Of a stretch of 51,927 bases of DNA, positions 359-51,541 are shown in pieces. The position numbers and the translations under genes were made by a program. The DNA comes from Gammaproteobacteria bacterium (GTDB taxonomy: Bacteria > Pseudomonadota > Gammaproteobacteria > Thiohalomonadales > Thiohalomonadaceae): assembly GCA_015231435.1 (NCBI GenBank), contig JADGBN010000008.1, positions 1 to 51,927 of the forward strand, read 5' to 3'. The stretch's first letter is position 1. Every line of letters begins with the position of its first letter. Below the pieces are notes generated by a model that searched no databases, was not told the origin of the DNA, and saw only the letters and a list, made by a program, of their open reading frames with translations.

Positions 359-2365
359 TTACAGAAGCGGAACCATTAACAGGGCAACAATGTTAATGAT
401 CTTAATGAGCGGGTTAATCGCTGGGCCTGCGGTATCTTTGTAGGGGTCGCCTACGGTGTCACCGGTGACCGCCGCTTTATGGGCGTCAGAACCTTTACCA
501 CCAAAGTGACCATCTTCGATATATTTTTTGGCGTTATCCCAAGCACCACCACCGGTGGTCATTGAGATGGCGACAAAAATACCGGTGATAATGGTACCAA
601 TCAGCAGTCCGCCAAGTGCCTGTGGCCCAAGAATCAGACCGACCAGAATGGGTACCAGAATGGGCAGCAGCGAGGGGATGATCATCTCTTTAATTGCCGA
701 TTTGGTTAGCATATCGACCGCTTTTGAGTAGTCCGGTTTTTGGGTGTGATCCATAATGCCGGGCATTTCGCGGAATTGACGCCGTACTTCATTAACAATG
801 CCACCTGCGGCACGGCCAACGGCCTCCATCGACATCGCTCCGAAGAGGTAGGGTACCAGGCCACCAATGAACAGGCCGATAATCACCATATGGTTTGAGA
901 GGTCAAAGAGCGTCACGCTACCCATTTTGGCTTCCAGTGCATGGGTGTAGTCAGCAAAGAGTACCAGCGCTGCAAGTCCGGCAGAACCGATGGCATAACC
1001 TTTGGTGACCGCTTTGGTGGTGTTACCTACGGCGTCCAGCGGATCGGTGATATTACGGATCTTCTCGTCGAGTTCAGCCATTTCAGCAATACCACCAGCG
1101 TTGTCGGTGATCGGGCCATAGGCGTCAAGAGCGACGATAATACCAGTCATCGAGAGCATCGATGTGGCGGCAATGGCGATACCATAGAGTCCGGCAAGTT
1201 CGTAAGAACCCCAAATCGCGGCACAAACGGCAAGCACCGGCGCTGCGGTGGACTTCATCGAAACACCCAGACCGGCGATAACGTTGGTGCCGTCACCAGT
1301 GGTGGAGGCCTCAGCGATATGACGTACTGGTGAGTATTCGGTGGCGGTGTAGTACTCGGTAATGACCACCATTGCTGCCGTCAGTGCCAGACCAATCATC
1401 GCGGACCAGAAGAGCGGCATTGCAAGTTCGCCCATCATGTTGACCGAGACGAAGTAGAAGGCAACTGCCGAGATGAGACCGGCAACGATGAGGCCACGAT
1501 AGAGGGCATTCATAATTTTGCCGCCCTCACGCACCTTGACAAAGAAGGTGCCAGCGATAGAGGCAATAATGGAGACACCACCAAGCACCAGCGGATAGAT
1601 AATCGCTGCGCTACCCATGTCGGCGAGCATTAGTGAACCGAGCAGCATGGTCGCAACCACGGTTACTGCGTAGGTTTCAAAAAGGTCAGCAGCCATACCG
1701 GCACAGTCACCGACGTTATCACCCACGTTGTCAGCGATAACTGCAGGGTTGCGTGGGTCATCCTCGGGAATACCGGCCTCTACCTTACCAACGATATCGG
1801 CACCGACATCGGCACCTTTGGTAAAGATGCCGCCGCCAAGACGGGCGAAGATTGAGATGAGTGAGCCACCAAAAGCAAGGCCGACCATCGCGTGCAGTGC
1901 ATCAGCATCACTCTGTCCCATGGCATGCAGAATACCGTAGTAACCGGCAACGCCCAACAGACCGAGGCCAACGACCAACATTCCGGTGATCGCGCCACCA
2001 CGGAAAGCGACCTGCATGGCTGCATCCAGTCCGTTACTGGCGGCTTGTGCGGTACGGGCATTGGCACGCACGGAGATATTCATGCCGATGTAGCCTGCCA
2101 GACCCGAGAAGACCGCGCCAATGACAAAGCCAATGGCGGTGCTGACGTTAAGGAAAATGGCGATAATGACGAGAATGACCACACCGACAATGCTAATAGT
2201 GGTGTACTGGCGATTAAGATAGGCAGAAGCGCCTTCCTGAATCGCTTTTTGAATCTCCTGCATCCGTTCATTTCCCGGCGACAGGGCAAGAATCCATTTT
2301 ACTGCAAGGCCGCCATAAACCAGTGCAACAATTGCACAGGCTAAAGCGAAGAAAAGTCCAGTCAT
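359..2365 (-). CDS. hppA: Membrane-bound proton-translocating pyrophosphatase
   Basis: A 668-residue polytopic inner-membrane enzyme that couples hydrolysis of pyrophosphate to proton export. The signature segments are all visible: [40 protein letters not shown] and the C-terminal [15 protein letters not shown]. The segment [10 protein letters not shown] carries a Lys at the position that distinguishes potassium-independent H+-PPases from potassium-dependent ones (Ala there), so this should be the K+-independent, proton-pumping class. The start ATG has a GGAGA ribosome site about 6 bases upstream. The gene follows pfp on the same strand with a 111-bp gap that holds a strong hairpin. Pairing with PPi-dependent phosphofructokinase is known from Methylococcus and sulfur-oxidising symbionts and suggests PPi is used as an energy currency. 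Confidence 0.97.
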
Positions 2366-2476: not shown

Positions 2477-3739
2477 TCAGACCTTGTAGGGCTCAAGTTT
2501 CTGTGCGATCAGTACATTTTTCAGGGTAACGTAGTTTGGCATACCATTTTTGTAGGGCGGATAATCCTCCCCGGCAATTAGTGGCTCAAGATAGGCACGT
2601 CCCTCGGGGGTAATGCTGAATCCGTCGCTACTAATGTACTCCATGGGCATCATCTTCTCTACGTTGGCCACCTCTGAAAGCGGAGCCTCACCCACCGTCC
2701 AGCGGTAGGGCTTGTTGGATTTGCGAACGACCGTCGGCATGACCGCATTTCTTCCCTTTAATGCCAACTCCACTGCCGCCTTACCCATCGCATACGCTTG
2801 CTCCACATCCGTTGCGGAGGCAATGTGGCGACCGGCACGTTGCAGATAGTCGGCAACTGCCCAGTGGTATTTCAGCCCAAGATCTTCCTGAATCATGCCC
2901 GCGACCACAGGCGCGGCCCCGCCTAACTGGCTGTGGCCAAACGCATCTTTTAGACCGGTTTCCGCAAGGAACTTACCGTCTTCGTGATGCACGCCTTCGG
3001 AGACGACAACGGAACAGTAACCGTACTGTGCCACCTTCTCCTTGACGGCAGTCATAAATTTCTCACGATTAAAGATGACTTCGGGGAAAAGAATGACCAC
3101 CGGAATATCATTGCTTTTGTCTGCTGCAAGTGCTCCGGCAGCGGCAATCCATCCGGCATGACGTCCCATCACTTCGAGTACGAAGACTTTGGTGGAGGTG
3201 GCGCACATGGAGCGGACATCGTAGCTTGCCTCGCGGGTGGCGACAGCGATGTATTTGGCAACCGAGCCAAATCCCGGGCAGTTGTCAGTGATCGGCAGGT
3301 CGTTATCGACAGTTTTAGGAACATGAATGGCCTGAATAGGGTAGCCCATGGTCTCTGCCAACTGTGAGACTTTATGGCAGGTGTCTGCAGAGTCACCGCC
3401 GCCGTTGTAGAAGAAGTAACCAATGTTATGCGCCTGAAAAACCTCCATCAGACGATCATATTGCGCTTTGCTCTGCTCTAACCCTTTTAATTTGTAACGG
3501 CAGGAGCCAAAGGCACCGGAGGGGGTGTAGCGCAGCGCGGCAATTGCTTTTGCCGACTCTTTTGAGGTGTCGATAAGCTCCTCTTGCAGGGCGCCAATAA
3601 TACCGTTGCGACCGGCATAGACCTTGCCGATATGTTTGCTGTTGGCACGTGCGGTTTCAATCACGCCTGCCGCTGAGGCATTAATGACGGCGGTAACGCC
3701 GCCCGACTGGGCGTAGAAGGCGTTCATCTTTTTTGCCAT
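2477..3739 (-). CDS. pfp: Pyrophosphate-dependent 6-phosphofructokinase
   Basis: A 420-residue PfkA-superfamily enzyme that reversibly phosphorylates fructose 6-phosphate with pyrophosphate. Visible motifs are FYNGGGDSADT (phosphate-donor site), PKTVDNDLPITDNCPG (the TVDND catalytic segment in the PPi-type form) and MGRHAGW (substrate binding). In ATP enzymes the corresponding motif is TIDND within a different context, which supports PPi use. An AAGGAGAG ribosome site precedes the ATG. It lies upstream of hppA on the same strand. In autotrophs such enzymes can also act on sedoheptulose bisphosphate and regenerate PPi, which the adjacent proton-pumping pyrophosphatase can then use. The donor specificity is inferred from motifs. 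Confidence 0.93.
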   Translation of the reverse strand: MAKKMNAFYAQSGGVTAVINASAAGVIETARANSKHIGKVYAGRNGIIGALQEELIDTSKESAKAIAALRYTPSGAFGSCRYKLKGLEQSKAQYDRLMEVFQAHNIGYFFYNGGGDSADTCHKVSQLAETMGYPIQAIHVPKTVDNDLPITDNCPGFGSVAKYIAVATREASYDVRSMCATSTKVFVLEVMGRHAGWIAAAGALAADKSNDIPVVILFPEVIFNREKFMTAVKEKVAQYGYCSVVVSEGVHHEDGKFLAETGLKDAFGHSQLGGAAPVVAGMIQEDLGLKYHWAVADYLQRAGRHIASATDVEQAYAMGKAAVELALKGRNAVMPTVVRKSNKPYRWTVGEAPLSEVANVEKMMPMEYISSDGFSITPEGRAYLEPLIAGEDYPPYKNGMPNYVTLKNVLIAQKLEPYKV

Positions 3740-3836: not shown

Positions 3837-4190
3837 CTATTTGACAGATTCATTAAGTTTTGCCGCATAATCGGCCTGTACTTGAAGCAGGGAGACCATG
3901 CACTCGGCCAGATCGTCGTAGGTCTCGATGCCGGTGCCAAACTGCTGATGTACGCGGTAGAAAAACTGGCAGCGGAAGCGACTCTCGCCCACCTTGGTCA
4001 CTACAAAATTGGCACTGCCGTCGCTCCAGAAGATAGCGGGGCAGAGGGTAAGGGTTGTTGCGTGCGGGTCAAGCCGTAGCTCGCTATCGGCAAATTGCGT
4101 CTCCACGGTTCGGCGATAACGCTCTTCAAGAGTCTTCTGTATGATCCAGAGCTCATTTTTGTTAAAATCAGCGATCTCGTTCTCTGACAT
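3837..4190 (-). CDS. Hypothetical protein upstream of pfp
   Basis: A soluble, acidic protein of 117 residues that I do not recognise. It has no signal peptide or membrane segment. The N-terminus is helical and charged (NKNELWIIQKTLEERY), the middle looks like beta strands (LRLDPHATTLTLCPAIFW) and the C-terminus is helical. It shares orientation with pfp and hppA, 97 bp upstream of pfp, and diverges from the tailed adenylate kinase gene. The position suggests a role linked to the pyrophosphate module, but this is guilt by association only. The Shine-Dalgarno sequence before the ATG is weak. Confidence 0.7.
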   Translation of the reverse strand: MSENEIADFNKNELWIIQKTLEERYRRTVETQFADSELRLDPHATTLTLCPAIFWSDGSANFVVTKVGESRFRCQFFYRVHQQFGTGIETYDDLAECMVSLLQVQADYAAKLNESVK

Positions 4191-4406: not shown

Positions 4407-5741
4407 ATGAGAATAATCATCCTCGGAGCGCCAGGCTCAGGAAAAGGTGTGCAGGTCGCCTTGCTGCAAGAGAAATTTAATATTCCTGAAGTCTCCTCCT
4501 GCGAGTTGCTGCGTTCAGCAGTGGCAGGTAAAACCCCTCTGGGGCGCATGGCAAAGGGGATTATAGACTCCGGACAGATGGTGAGTGATGAGGTGCTTAT
4601 CGGTATTATTGAAGAGCGCATCAGTGAACCAGATGCTAGGCAGGGGTTTATTCTTGATGGTTTTCCGCGCACGATCCCGCAGGCTGAGGCGCTGGATGAG
4701 ATGCTCGCGCGACAGGATATTAGCATCGACAAGGTTATGGTGCTCGATGTTGATGCCGATGTGGTGATGCAGCGGGTTGTCGGTAGGCGCATCTGCCGTA
4801 GCTGCGCCAGTGAGTTTAATATTTTTACCGCACCTCCCCGGATGGACGATCGTTGTGATAACTGCGGTGGCCGTTTGCGGCATCGTCCCGACGATAATGA
4901 GGAGAGCATTGGTAATCGCCTGCGAATTTATGCAACGCAAACGATTCCGCTGATTAGCTATTACCAGCAGCAGCGTAAATTACAGACGATTGAGGGTGGT
5001 CGTGAGATTGCAGTGGTTCATGCGGCATTGGCGGAGGCGGTGGGGTCAATTCCCAAACGGGCAGCAAAAAGCAGTTTGGCGGATGTGCGTGCCGTACTCG
5101 ATAAACTGATAAAAAGTCAGGATGTTGCTCAGACCGTCAATGTCTCTGTGGAGCCTGAAGCGCAAGCGGTTGCGCAACCTGCTCCTGAGCCGGCAACCAA
5201 GAAAAAGACAAAAAGTTCCACACCGACAGCAAAAGCCAGAGCACCCAGAAAAAAGGTGACCAAGGGCGTTACTGAACCCCCTGTCTCCAGTGATAGTAGT
5301 GATAGTAAAGGTGAATCAGCCGCTCAACCCAGGTCGGAACCAGCTAAAAAAGTGGTGGTTAAAAAAGTCAGGGTGCAGGAGAGCGCTACGCCGACTGCGG
5401 CTGGGGGCGTTAGCAAGAAGCGCGTAGGCAAAAAGAGATCGGCAACGGCAACGCATGAGGCCCCTATTTCCGATACGCCTGCAGCAGTGACTAAAAAAGC
5501 GAAAAAAACAGTAGCCAGTGAGAGCGGCAGCGAAACTGTAAAGGTGGAAAAAAAGTCTGCGCCAAAGCGCAGTGCGGTAAAAAAGGTGGTTGCCAAAGCA
5601 GATGATGCAAGCGCGAAACCAGCCGCAGCCAAAAAAAGCAGCAGCAAAGAGCGAACGGCAAAGCCTGCGACAGGAAAGGCGCGCGAGGCCGCAGCTGCCA
5701 TATTAAAGACAAATAAATCTGTCACAACAAAGCGCGATTAA
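4407..5741 (+). CDS. Adenylate kinase-like protein with zinc LID and histone H1-like tail
   Basis: A 444-residue protein with two parts. Residues 1 to about 215 form an adenylate kinase domain: P-loop GAPGSGKG, AMP-site DGFPRT, GRR, and the LID/R-finger segment RPDDNEESIGNRL. The LID holds a Cys4 zinc knuckle (C130, C133, C150, C153). Some usual residues differ: GKGVQ for GKGTQ, and SSCELLR for STGDMLR. Residues from about 250 to 444 are low-complexity Lys/Ala/Pro/Ser sequence with many KK and AKK runs, like bacterial histone H1-like or AlgP-like tails. The tail is in frame without interruption. The usual length is about 215 residues, so the tail doubles it. It faces the pfp-hppA unit and may interconvert AMP, ADP and ATP near the pyrophosphate pathway, perhaps bound to nucleic acid or another polyanion. 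A second, ordinary adk lies at 45595. Confidence 0.85.
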   Translation: MRIIILGAPGSGKGVQVALLQEKFNIPEVSSCELLRSAVAGKTPLGRMAKGIIDSGQMVSDEVLIGIIEERISEPDARQGFILDGFPRTIPQAEALDEMLARQDISIDKVMVLDVDADVVMQRVVGRRICRSCASEFNIFTAPPRMDDRCDNCGGRLRHRPDDNEESIGNRLRIYATQTIPLISYYQQQRKLQTIEGGREIAVVHAALAEAVGSIPKRAAKSSLADVRAVLDKLIKSQDVAQTVNVSVEPEAQAVAQPAPEPATKKKTKSSTPTAKARAPRKKVTKGVTEPPVSSDSSDSKGESAAQPRSEPAKKVVVKKVRVQESATPTAAGGVSKKRVGKKRSATATHEAPISDTPAAVTKKAKKTVASESGSETVKVEKKSAPKRSAVKKVVAKADDASAKPAAAKKSSSKERTAKPATGKAREAAAAILKTNKSVTTKRD

Positions 5742-14226: not shown

Positions 14227-14661
14227 ATGAGCGTTACAAAACCAGCAATGGCGGAGAGTGGCGTGGCAACGGGCGCTAATGATAGATTAGGCGCTATCCC
14301 GGTAGTGGAGATGACGATGCCTGCTGCGGATACAGCGGAGAGCCTCTCCTGTGAAAAGCGTGAGCCCTACGTACTGATGGCCTTGGGTGATAGTATGGAA
14401 CCTGAGTTTTGCGATGGTGATGTGGTGGTGATTGAGCCTGATTATCCGCCGCGTTCGGGCCATTTTGTGATTGCCATGCATAATGGTGAGTATACCTTTC
14501 GGCAGTTACTGCAGCGTGGTGATGCCTGGTATTTGCATCCGCTGAACAGTCGCTATCCGGATGCAGAGGTCTCTGGCCCTGACTGCGTGAAAGGGGTCAT
14601 TTCGCAAAAGAAGCGTCCGGGACGACGTAAGAAGGGTGAACCCCGCCCCTCGTATCTGTAA
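14227..14661 (+). CDS. S24/LexA-like peptidase domain protein without HTH, catalytic Lys replaced
   Basis: A 144-residue protein with one S24 (LexA/UmuD/CI C-terminal) domain. The serine motif LGDSMEPEF (S56) is intact and is followed by DGDVVVIEP. In LexA and UmuD a Lys in the following strand (EVTVKRL) activates the serine. Here the aligned strand is EYTFRQLL, with Arg (R92) at that place. The N-terminal 45 residues are low in order and contain no helix-turn-helix, so the protein is not a standard repressor. The C-terminus is strongly basic (KKRPGRRKKGEPR). A TAAGGAG site lies before the ATG. It could be a non-cleaving S24 fold used for binding. Activity is doubtful. Confidence 0.75.
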   Translation: MSVTKPAMAESGVATGANDRLGAIPVVEMTMPAADTAESLSCEKREPYVLMALGDSMEPEFCDGDVVVIEPDYPPRSGHFVIAMHNGEYTFRQLLQRGDAWYLHPLNSRYPDAEVSGPDCVKGVISQKKRPGRRKKGEPRPSYL

Positions 14662-16006: not shown

Positions 16007-16762
16007 TTGTCGGTGATAGCCCGCTTAAGCAGGCGCTTTACTCGGTTGTTAAAACCGTTAATCAGCAGCGTCGGCGATCTGCTGCCGATTGTCCTGGTGG
16101 TTGGTTTTTTTCAGTTGGTGGTGTTGCGACAGACTATTCCTGATTTTGCCCAGATAGTTATCGGCGTTATTCTTGTCGTCTTAGGGCTGACTTTTTTTAT
16201 CAAGGGGCTGGAGATGGGGCTTTTTCCCGTTGGTGAGAGCATGGCCTACGCCTTTGCTCGCAAGGGGAGTCTCTTCTGGTTGCTCGCTTTTGCCTTTGCC
16301 CTGGGGTTCGGGACGACGGTCGCCGAACCTGCCCTGATTGCAGTGGCGAATGAGGCGGCAAAGGTTGCAGCGGAAGGGGGCGTCATTGCCCATCATGCCG
16401 AGGCGATGGATGCCTATGCCACAGGCTTGCGCTTTACCGTTGCCCTCTCGGTGGGCGTTGCCATTCTTCTTGGGGTGTTTCGGATCATCAAGGGGTGGCC
16501 GATTCACTACTTTATTATTGGTGGTTATCTTGGTGTGGTGGTCATGACGATGTTCGCACCCGAGGAGATTATCGGTATTGCCTATGACTCTGGGGGGGTC
16601 ACCACCTCAACCATTACCGTCCCTTTGGTAACGGCGCTCGGGGTTGGGCTCGCCTCCAGTATTCGTGGGCGAAATCCGATGATTGACGGTTTTGGCCTGA
16701 TCGCTTTCGCCTCCCTGACACCGATGATCTTTGTGATGGCCTACGGGATGATTATCGGATGA
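16007..16762 (+). CDS. DUF1538 membrane protein (first of pair)
   Basis: A roughly 250-residue inner-membrane protein with about six or seven helices. It has the DUF1538 marks [14 protein letters not shown], a GTTVAEPAL motif in mid-protein and [20 protein letters not shown] near the C-terminus. The polar motifs inside membrane segments suggest a transporter or channel; no substrate is known to me. TTG at 16007 or GTG at 16013 can serve as start. The short AGG at 16002-16004 fits GTG better. It overlaps the next gene by 4 bases (ATGA at 16759) and resembles it, so the two probably form a heteromeric unit, regulated by the downstream P-II-like and CBS proteins. Confidence 0.85.
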
Positions 16763-17532
16763 ATGATCTGCTCCAGCTGCTGCTAAACTCCACTCTCTCG
16801 ACGGTATCTGATGTTCTGCCGATTGCGATAATTATCTTCGGCTTTCAGTTTTTGGTTATCCGCAAGCCGATTCCGCATCTGAAAAACGTCCTATTCGGTT
16901 TTTTCTATGTACTGCTCGGTCTGTCGCTCTTTCTGGTGGGTCTGGAGGAGGCGCTCTTTCCTATTGGCAGACTGATGGCACAGCAGTTGACCGATCCGGC
17001 CTTTATTCTCGGTAGCGAGCTTGGCCGATTGGCGGTGTGGAGTGATTATGGCTGGATCTACCTTTTTGCCTTTACCATTGGCTATGCGACGACGATTGCC
17101 GAACCCTCACTGCTGGCGGTGGCGATTAAGGCTTCAGAGGTTTCAGGCGGCAGTATTGGAATTCGTGGTTTGCGCAATGCGGTGGCGCTGGGGGTGGCTA
17201 TTGGCATTACCCTGGGTACTTTTCGTATTATTAGTGGCACGCCCCTGCACTACTACATTATCGTAGGTTATATAATCGTGATTATTCAGACGTTCAAATC
17301 GCCTAAGATGATTATTGCGCTGGCCTATGATTCCGGTGGGGTGACGACCTCTACGGTTACCGTACCCCTGGTTACTGCCCTTGGGTTGGGGCTTGCCAGT
17401 ACCGTACCCGGGCGGAGCCCGATGTTGGATGGTTTCGGTCTGATCGCTTTTGCCAGCCTCTTTCCGATTATTGCCGTTCTGGGGTATGCGCAGTTATCGC
17501 AATGGCGGGCGAGTCGATCGTCATCGTCCTAG
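16759..17532 (+). CDS. DUF1538 membrane protein (second of pair)
   Basis: A 257-residue paralogue of the preceding gene, sharing [14 protein letters not shown], an ATTIAEPSL motif and [20 protein letters not shown]. The two proteins align over most of their length, so the locus arose by duplication. The family often carries both halves as one long protein; here they are separate genes with coupled translation. The highly conserved DSGGVTTST loop is a good candidate for the substrate path. The next gene, encoding a P-II-like protein, follows after 95 bp. Confidence 0.85.
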
Positions 17533-45576: not shown

Positions 45577-46248
<672 letters not shown>

Positions 46249-49923: not shown

Positions 49924-50990
49924 GATTTAGGGGATCAGTATACAAGTCATGAACAACCTCGAACTCAACATGACAGAAAAATCAGCCTTGGAGCAACAGC
50001 ACAAGACGTGTCGTGATGGAAAAGAGCGTGACCGAATTAAAGCACTCTTACTGCGTTCAGAAGGTTGGCAGTTAGCACAAATAGCACAGGCGCTGCGGCT
50101 ACATGAATCGACAATAGCTCGTCATATCGATGATTTTATAGACCATAAGAAATGTTCAAACAGTAGTGGTGGCTCATTCAGTAAATTGACGCAAACTCAG
50201 ACAGAAGAGTTGGTCGCTCATTTGGTTGCCAATACCTACTATCATCAGCGTGACATCGTTGCCCATATTCAACAGTGCTACAGGGTTACCTACACGATTG
50301 CCGGAATAAATAAATGGCTGCACAAAAATGGTTTTAGTTACAAAAAGCCCAAAGCAGTCCCCTACAAGGTTGATGCTGAAAAACAAGCTGCTTTTATTGA
50401 ACGCTATCGGCAGTTAAAGGCAGAAGCCAAGTCGGATGAAGCGATATTCTTTATGGATGCGGTGCATCCAACACAGGCAACAAAAATCAGCGCTGGCTGG
50501 ATAAAGACTGCAACGGATAAACCCATCAAAACTACCGCTAGTCGTACTCGGTTGAACATTATCGGTGCCCTACAGTTAAGCCAAATAGACCAAACGCTGA
50601 CGGTGCAATACCCCACGATAAATGGCGAAGCAATTATCGATTTTCTGCGGAAACTGCGCCAAAAAAATGCCGAAAAAGGAAGATTGCATCTCATCTTGGA
50701 TGGAGCGGGTTATCACAAAGCACACATTGTGACAGAGACCGCCAAAACGCTTCAGATAGAGTTACATTATCTCCCGCCCTACAGTCCGAATTTGAACCCG
50801 ATAGAGCGATTATGGAAAGTGATGAACGAAAAAGTTCGAAACAACCGATGCTTTCACAGTGCGATGGAATTTCGCGAAGCAATTAATCATTTCTTTGACA
50901 AGATATTGCCAGATATGGGGGATTCATTGAATACGAGAATTACCGATAATTTTCAGGTTTTCAATCCAGCATTTTCAAGTTGATTGGGTA
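49891..50990 (+). mobile_element. IS630-family insertion sequence with ERIC-like ends
   Basis: A 1100-bp element with TA on each side (49889-49890 and 50991-50992), the target duplication of IS630/Tc1-mariner elements. Left end TACCCCAGATCTATGAAAAT; right end, reverse-complemented, TACCCAATCAACTTGAAAAT then GCTGG. Inside is one intact transposase gene. The right end shares TACCC plus CTTGAAAATGCTGG with the right end of the ERIC-like element at 42062-42185. Flanking genes on the two sides are different broken genes, so the element sits at a rearrangement point. Confidence 0.88.
49949..50983 (+). CDS. IS630-family transposase
   Basis: A 344-residue DDE transposase. The N-terminal half has two helix-turn-helix modules (LAQIAQALRLHESTIARHI and the winged GINKWLHKNGFSYKKPK). 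The catalytic triad is intact: FFMDAVHPT (first Asp), LILDGAGYHKA (second Asp) and PPYSPNLNPIERLWK (Glu). No frameshift is seen, so it may be active. The stop codon lies inside the right inverted repeat. Confidence 0.95.
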   Translation: MNNLELNMTEKSALEQQHKTCRDGKERDRIKALLLRSEGWQLAQIAQALRLHESTIARHIDDFIDHKKCSNSSGGSFSKLTQTQTEELVAHLVANTYYHQRDIVAHIQQCYRVTYTIAGINKWLHKNGFSYKKPKAVPYKVDAEKQAAFIERYRQLKAEAKSDEAIFFMDAVHPTQATKISAGWIKTATDKPIKTTASRTRLNIIGALQLSQIDQTLTVQYPTINGEAIIDFLRKLRQKNAEKGRLHLILDGAGYHKAHIVTETAKTLQIELHYLPPYSPNLNPIERLWKVMNEKVRNNRCFHSAMEFREAINHFFDKILPDMGDSLNTRITDNFQVFNPAFSS

Positions 50991-50992
50991 TA

Positions 50993-51541
50993 TATCAGGG
51001 CCGTTATAAGGCGGTTTTGGTTGAAAGAGACAACTACCTGCTTGAACTGGCGCGTTATGTAGTGCTTAACCCTTTGCGCGCAAACATGGTGAAACGTCTG
51101 GAAGATTGGCCTTGGAGCAGTTATCTGGCCAGCTGCGGGCAAGCTCCCACGCCTGCTTGGCTGCAAACAGATTGGATACTTGCTCAATTCAGCCCGCAAC
51201 GTGCAACCGCGATCGCCAATTATGTCGAATTTGTTCATCAAGGTGCCAGACTGCCCAGTGTATGGGCAAAGTTGCAGGGGCAAATTTTCTTGGGGTCGGT
51301 CGATTTTGTTAAGAAAATGCAAGCGGAAATAGAAGGCAAGCCATCCCTAGAAGAGATACCTCGCACGCAACGTCGTATGATTACCCAGCCATTGCAAGAC
51401 TTTGAGTTAAAATACCCACCACGCCAAGCCATGGCAAAAGCCTATCTATCAGGGCAACATACCATGGCCGCTATCGCCAAACATTTTAGCGTACATTATT
51501 CAACAGTCAGCCGAGCAGTAAAAAAACATGAAGCAGAGTAA
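50993..51541 (+). pseudogene. REP-associated (Y1) transposase, truncated at 5' end
   Basis: About 183 residues of an IS200-like Y1 transposase of the RAYT type. It begins QGRYKAVLVERDNYLLELAR and contains the catalytic Tyr region LARYVVLNPLRANMV, WPWSSY, and a C-terminal helix-turn-helix (MAAIAKHFSVHYSTVSRAVKKH). The HUH metal motif and the first 100 or so residues are missing. The IS630 element abuts the break, and a TTG in its end could give a false start. It is not functional as a transposase. Confidence 0.85.

Follow-up and report, generated by a model that had tools for sequence, protein, structure and literature searches.

A zinc-type adenylate kinase with a lysine-rich, histone H1-like tail is widespread in Gammaproteobacteria and is usually encoded next to genes of pyrophosphate metabolism

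Adenylate kinase is the enzyme which balances AMP, ADP and ATP. The closest described structures are those of the Gram-positive zinc type from Geobacillus/Bacillus (Adk; 1zin, 1p3j), with which the protein presented here shares the fold, the P-loop, the GFPR motif and a four-cysteine LID over residues 1-213. The Geobacillus/Bacillus enzymes are untailed and carry the canonical T15, T31, G32 and D33 (E. coli numbering throughout); in both respects our protein differs. The adenylate kinases of NF010381/PRK13808 (a 335-residue model), which we take to be alphaproteobacterial, also extend beyond the kinase domain. This model aligned to residues 1-345 of our protein, yet the score of 186.9 bits is far below the cut-off of 426. 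Thus, it is not a member of NF010381.

Lysine-rich tails are known from other proteins. AlgP and PhaF of Pseudomonas likewise possess a disordered K/A/P-rich, H1-like tail behind a folded or helical N-terminal domain, and these tails appear to take part in the association with DNA and with granules (PMC9239181). However, neither contains an adenylate kinase, and the partners are polyphosphate and the nucleoid for AlgP and PHA granules for PhaF (PMC9239181). In actinobacterial TopA, Ku and HupB lysine-rich C-termini strengthen DNA binding (PMC7398561). The layout of an enzyme or DNA-binding core followed by a lysine-rich tail is that of the tailed kinase, but the cores of TopA, Ku and HupB act on DNA. 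The genomic surroundings have a precedent as well. A PPi-dependent phosphofructokinase (PPi-PFK) combined with an H+-translocating pyrophosphatase (H+-PPase) is known from methanotrophic and thiotrophic Gammaproteobacteria as an energy-saving variant of the Calvin cycle (PMC4136832, PMC4949241). These are the same enzymes which neighbour the kinase described here; an adenylate kinase is mentioned in neither report.

The window, i.e., the whole stretch of DNA analysed, comprises 51,927 nucleotides. The source genome has 2.87 Mb in 223 contigs, is 94% complete and encodes three adenylate kinases. The relevant features of the window are:

359..2365, minus strand: H+-translocating pyrophosphatase (Pfam H_PPase, E 2.5e-275)
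2477..3739, minus strand: PPi-dependent-type 6-phosphofructokinase (Pfam PFK), divergent from the kinase gene
3837..4190, minus strand: conserved 117-aa protein that matches no Pfam family, encoded divergently to the kinase gene at a distance of 217 bp; within 1 kb in 35 of 77 tailed loci
4407-5741, plus strand: tailed adenylate kinase gene; a single ORF which opens with ATG and encodes 444 aa without an internal stop
4407..5045, plus strand: adenylate kinase catalytic domain, residues 1-213 (Pfam/NCBIfam, PDB relatives, AlphaFold, Foldseek)
4785..4892, plus strand: zinc LID, residues 127-162, with C130, C133, C150 and C153 (Pfam ADK_lid; cysteines invariant in 20 relatives)
5046..5738, plus strand: disordered basic tail, residues 214-444 (composition, low pLDDT, APKKA-type tails in relatives)
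45595..46248, plus strand: second adenylate kinase, canonical proteobacterial type, without LID cysteines and without a tail, beside hemH

The analysis confirms that the 4407-5741 product is a real zinc-type adenylate kinase which ends in a disordered, lysine-rich, H1-like tail. The catalytic domain displays the P-loop GAPGSGKGVQ, the AMP site SSCELLR, and the motifs GFPR and DDNEES. Pfam assigns ADK to residues 5-190 (E 5e-49) and ADK_lid to residues 127-162; the NCBIfam adenylate kinase models NF001380 (over 1-213) and TIGR01351 are both matched above cut-off. PDB relatives of the kinase domain are found at E 5e-63, the best being ancestral and Bacillus-type zinc adenylate kinases, and a Foldseek search with the AlphaFold model has 1zin as its top match (E 6e-25). 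In this model the blocks of the kinase mostly reach a pLDDT of 84-95, and from residue 241 on the values drop to about 42-56; a single helix, 224-243, is predicted in the tail. An alignment of 20 members shows all four LID cysteines, C130, C133, C150 and C153, to be invariant.

The tail consists of 231 aa, among them 41 K, 12 R, 42 A, 28 S, 20 T and 17 P. F, W, Y and C are absent. With 53 K/R versus 22 D/E the net charge is about +31, i.e., 0.13 per residue compared to a median of 0.34 in intact members, which makes it less basic than most. Thus, the tail is long, disordered, K/A/P-rich and net positive. The first-pass annotation had claimed a Cys4-LID kinase followed in frame by about 200 lysine-rich residues, and this layout stands. 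It had also described Lys/Ala/Pro/Ser repeats; here the composition is correct, but clean repeats of the APKKA type are seen only in relatives, and a tandem repeat finder reports just one array in the gene, two copies of 9 bp. The proposed H1 likeness is borne out by the relatives, two of 20 of which match NF038053, the NCBIfam family of histone H1-like DNA-binding proteins (best E 1e-13); the tail of the window protein itself gave no H1-family match. Elsewhere in the source genome no tail-like sequence was found at E 10. A frameshift or assembly artefact as origin of the tail is ruled out because the ORF is uninterrupted and a congener (G001) has the same layout with a tail of 129 aa, which also shows that the tail is present in a close relative.

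We screened sets of 95 and 274 genomes for relatives and retrieved about 120 regions. The search for this architecture identified 77 tailed Cys4 adenylate kinases, all in Gammaproteobacteria: 76 genomes from 39 families and one named contig (L033). Clearly, the architecture is widespread in this class, and the idea of a tail unique to the source strain is refuted. In a draw of 249 genomes across the phylum, no tailed form was found outside Gammaproteobacteria. Additional loci, selected because they had long open frames or an extended match, gave 11 kinase frames, none of them with a tail. Among plasmids, no record matched 80% of the query at any one place. A literature search, largely without subscription journals, retrieved no paper describing an adenylate kinase with a basic tail. 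Within that reach the architecture is apparently undescribed, as the first-pass annotation had surmised, yet with 39 families it is anything but singular.

The 68 complete tails differ in length from 35 to 465 aa, and all of them are basic, with net charges from +9 to +113. Tail sequences are poorly conserved in the 20-member alignment. According to a tree built from the kinase domains only, the presence of the tail changed at least eight times. In little-diverged pairs the tail dN/dS is 0.03-0.38, with saturation in more diverged pairs and additional error from the alignment of repeats. Therefore, the tail is a selected protein segment, under purifying selection in the less diverged pairs.

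The strongest contextual link, which the first-pass annotation had missed, is the divergent pairing with PPi-PFK and H+-PPase. A distance of 165-981 bp separates 60 of the 77 tailed genes from a PPi-PFK gene, always in divergent orientation; for 47 of the 77, a gene of H+-PPase is also present within 4 kb. In the window, the 117-aa protein of 3837-4190 sits between the tailed kinase and PPi-PFK. The PPi specificity of this phosphofructokinase is suggested by the known gene pairing with H+-pyrophosphatase. Among the 17 tailed loci which do not adjoin PPi-PFK, some lie at contig ends or belong to genomes in which none is found. Untailed gammaproteobacterial Cys3/4 relatives adjoin PPi-PFK in 6 of 30 cases versus 60 of 77 for tailed ones (Fisher p 6e-8, without phylogenetic correction). 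Canonical untailed adk genes adjoin PPi-PFK in other lineages (L242-L246, L248), thus the pairing of adenylate kinase and phosphofructokinase is broader than the tail.

We scored eleven core residues of the active site. The motifs GKGVQ and SSCELLR in the window protein correspond to T15V, T31S, G32C and D33E; K13, R36, R88, Q92, R119, R123, R156, D158 and R167 are retained. V15 in the P-loop and S31 in the AMP site, shared with the congener, weaken a claim of normal kinetics, not the assignment to the fold, because the curated family cut-offs are passed. From these residues we predict altered rather than absent kinase activity. The substitutions are present as originally annotated, but they are no hallmark of the architecture: only the source genome (G000) and its congener share them, and most members are canonical.

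Other tailed kinases have diverged further. We observe K13R with R36N/S (G064, G204), T31V/A with R88E (G062, G202), T31S with R156G and further changes (G013, G005), and loss of T31 with R36K and D158E (G029, G102). Some of these substitutions (K13R with R36N, R88E, R156G) are probably inactivating. On the tree at least six changes are required to account for active-site alteration, and the most strongly altered sequences are on long branches. Nevertheless, altered kinases do not look like pseudogenes, because in four pairs the kinase dN/dS is 0.05-0.14, with synonymous sites near saturation. The tail is retained in 16 of 17 altered-site proteins; in G106 and G006 the contig ends within the tail, and the part present has little net charge.

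Where do the altered enzymes occur? The tailed enzyme is the sole adenylate kinase found in 26 genomes, and its core residues are unaltered in all of them. When another adenylate kinase is present the tailed enzyme is altered in 16 of 50 genomes (Fisher p 7e-4 against 0 of 26, uncorrected for phylogeny; adenylate kinase counts are lower bounds where genomes are incomplete). When the association of an extra kinase with an altered site was tested in phylogeny-aware pairs it was not significant; only four independent pairs, on starred branches of the tree, were usable, and the test had no power. The association is therefore only suggestive. Unusual active-site residues appear to be a feature of lineages which possess another adenylate kinase. 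The third adenylate kinase of the source genome (G000:C151:18607-19230) is of the GAGKGTVA type with a Cys4 LID and is untailed; it also occurs in several other Gammaproteobacteria.

With moderate confidence we propose a zinc-LID adenylate kinase with a nucleic-acid-tethering tail and an ordinary basal role, in which catalysis is partly relaxed where a spare kinase exists. The most likely target of the lysine-rich tail is nucleic acid, either DNA of the nucleoid or RNA; binding by charge alone would hold the kinase there. By analogy it probably works like the tails of AlgP/PhaF and those of the actinobacterial proteins; family membership is not claimed. To our knowledge, adenylate kinase has no DNA substrate. 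The basal role is plausibly the recycling of AMP by the tailed kinase and of PPi by its neighbours. Many biosynthetic reactions split ATP into AMP and PPi, and since the kinase gene usually adjoins PPi-PFK/H+-PPase such a joint recycling of both products is plausible. With a second adenylate kinase present, selection on catalysis may have eased in several lineages, and the tail and the gene position were retained. Because they were retained while catalysis relaxed, the tethered protein probably has a binding, scaffolding or AMP/ATP-sensing role in these lineages, with reduced or altered kinase activity. The pairing with genes of PPi metabolism and the retention of the tail despite a changed catalytic site are the most interesting aspects. 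If the tail is indeed such a tether, an enzyme central to energy charge, the sole one in some genomes, would be localised to the chromosome or to RNA, and local control of AMP/ADP/ATP in bacteria would become testable. Lineages with a decayed active site and a preserved tail are natural examples of a separation of function.

A more far-reaching version, rather unlikely in our opinion, has the tailed kinase converted in several gammaproteobacterial lineages into a pseudokinase-like adenylate sensor bound to nucleoid or RNA, with catalytic residues lost and the nucleotide-binding fold, the polycationic tail and the gene position kept.

We consider it improbable that the cationic tail recruits other metabolic proteins, such as PPi-PFK or the pyrophosphatase in the membrane, or else acidic lipid of the membrane, instead of nucleic acid. 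The strong synteny with PPi-PFK and H+-PPase would fit, as would the adjacency of adenylate kinase and phosphofructokinase genes even for the untailed canonical adk. However, the tail persists in G040 and G067, genomes in which PPi-PFK was not found, and untailed kinases also adjoin PPi-PFK. Thus, the tail and this neighbour are separable. Further, a specific protein partner would predict a conserved tail motif, and the 20-member alignment has none.

Compared to nucleic-acid tethering, polyphosphate as the target appears very doubtful. This possibility, already raised in the first-pass annotation, would have the tail bind polyphosphate granules and place the conversion of AMP to ADP at the granule. 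The similarly tailed AlgP localises to such granules (PMC9239181), the source genome has two PPK2, and PPK1 or PPK2 is present in 46 of 63 tailed genomes of the class draw. Yet the remaining 17 show neither PPK1 nor PPK2, which makes a general role of polyphosphate unlikely. PPK1 is seen in 39 of the 63 genomes and not in 24; the source genome has no PPK1, and untailed Cys-LID relatives even have a PPK more often (neither in 2 of 33). As a general target polyphosphate is therefore disfavoured; in some species it may have a role.

Equally poor are the prospects of a tolerated low-complexity extension which arose by slippage in A/K-rich DNA and has no specific role: the wide length range, the poor sequence conservation, the repeated changes of tail presence and the many untailed relatives agree with it, but all complete tails are positively charged, tail dN/dS is below 0.4 in less diverged pairs, and drift should have erased the tail from altered-site proteins, nearly all of which kept it.

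Elsewhere in the window, 14227-14661 encodes a stand-alone S24 peptidase-like domain in which a DNA-binding domain was not detected. Two tandem membrane proteins are located at 16007-17532; the first is DUF1538 (Pfam), and the second looks like a paralogue. At 49931-51541 an IS630-type transposase (DDE_3) is directly followed by an ORF (50984-51541) which resembles the C-terminal portion of a transposase of the REP-associated type; it looks as though the IS630-type element had inserted into this second gene.
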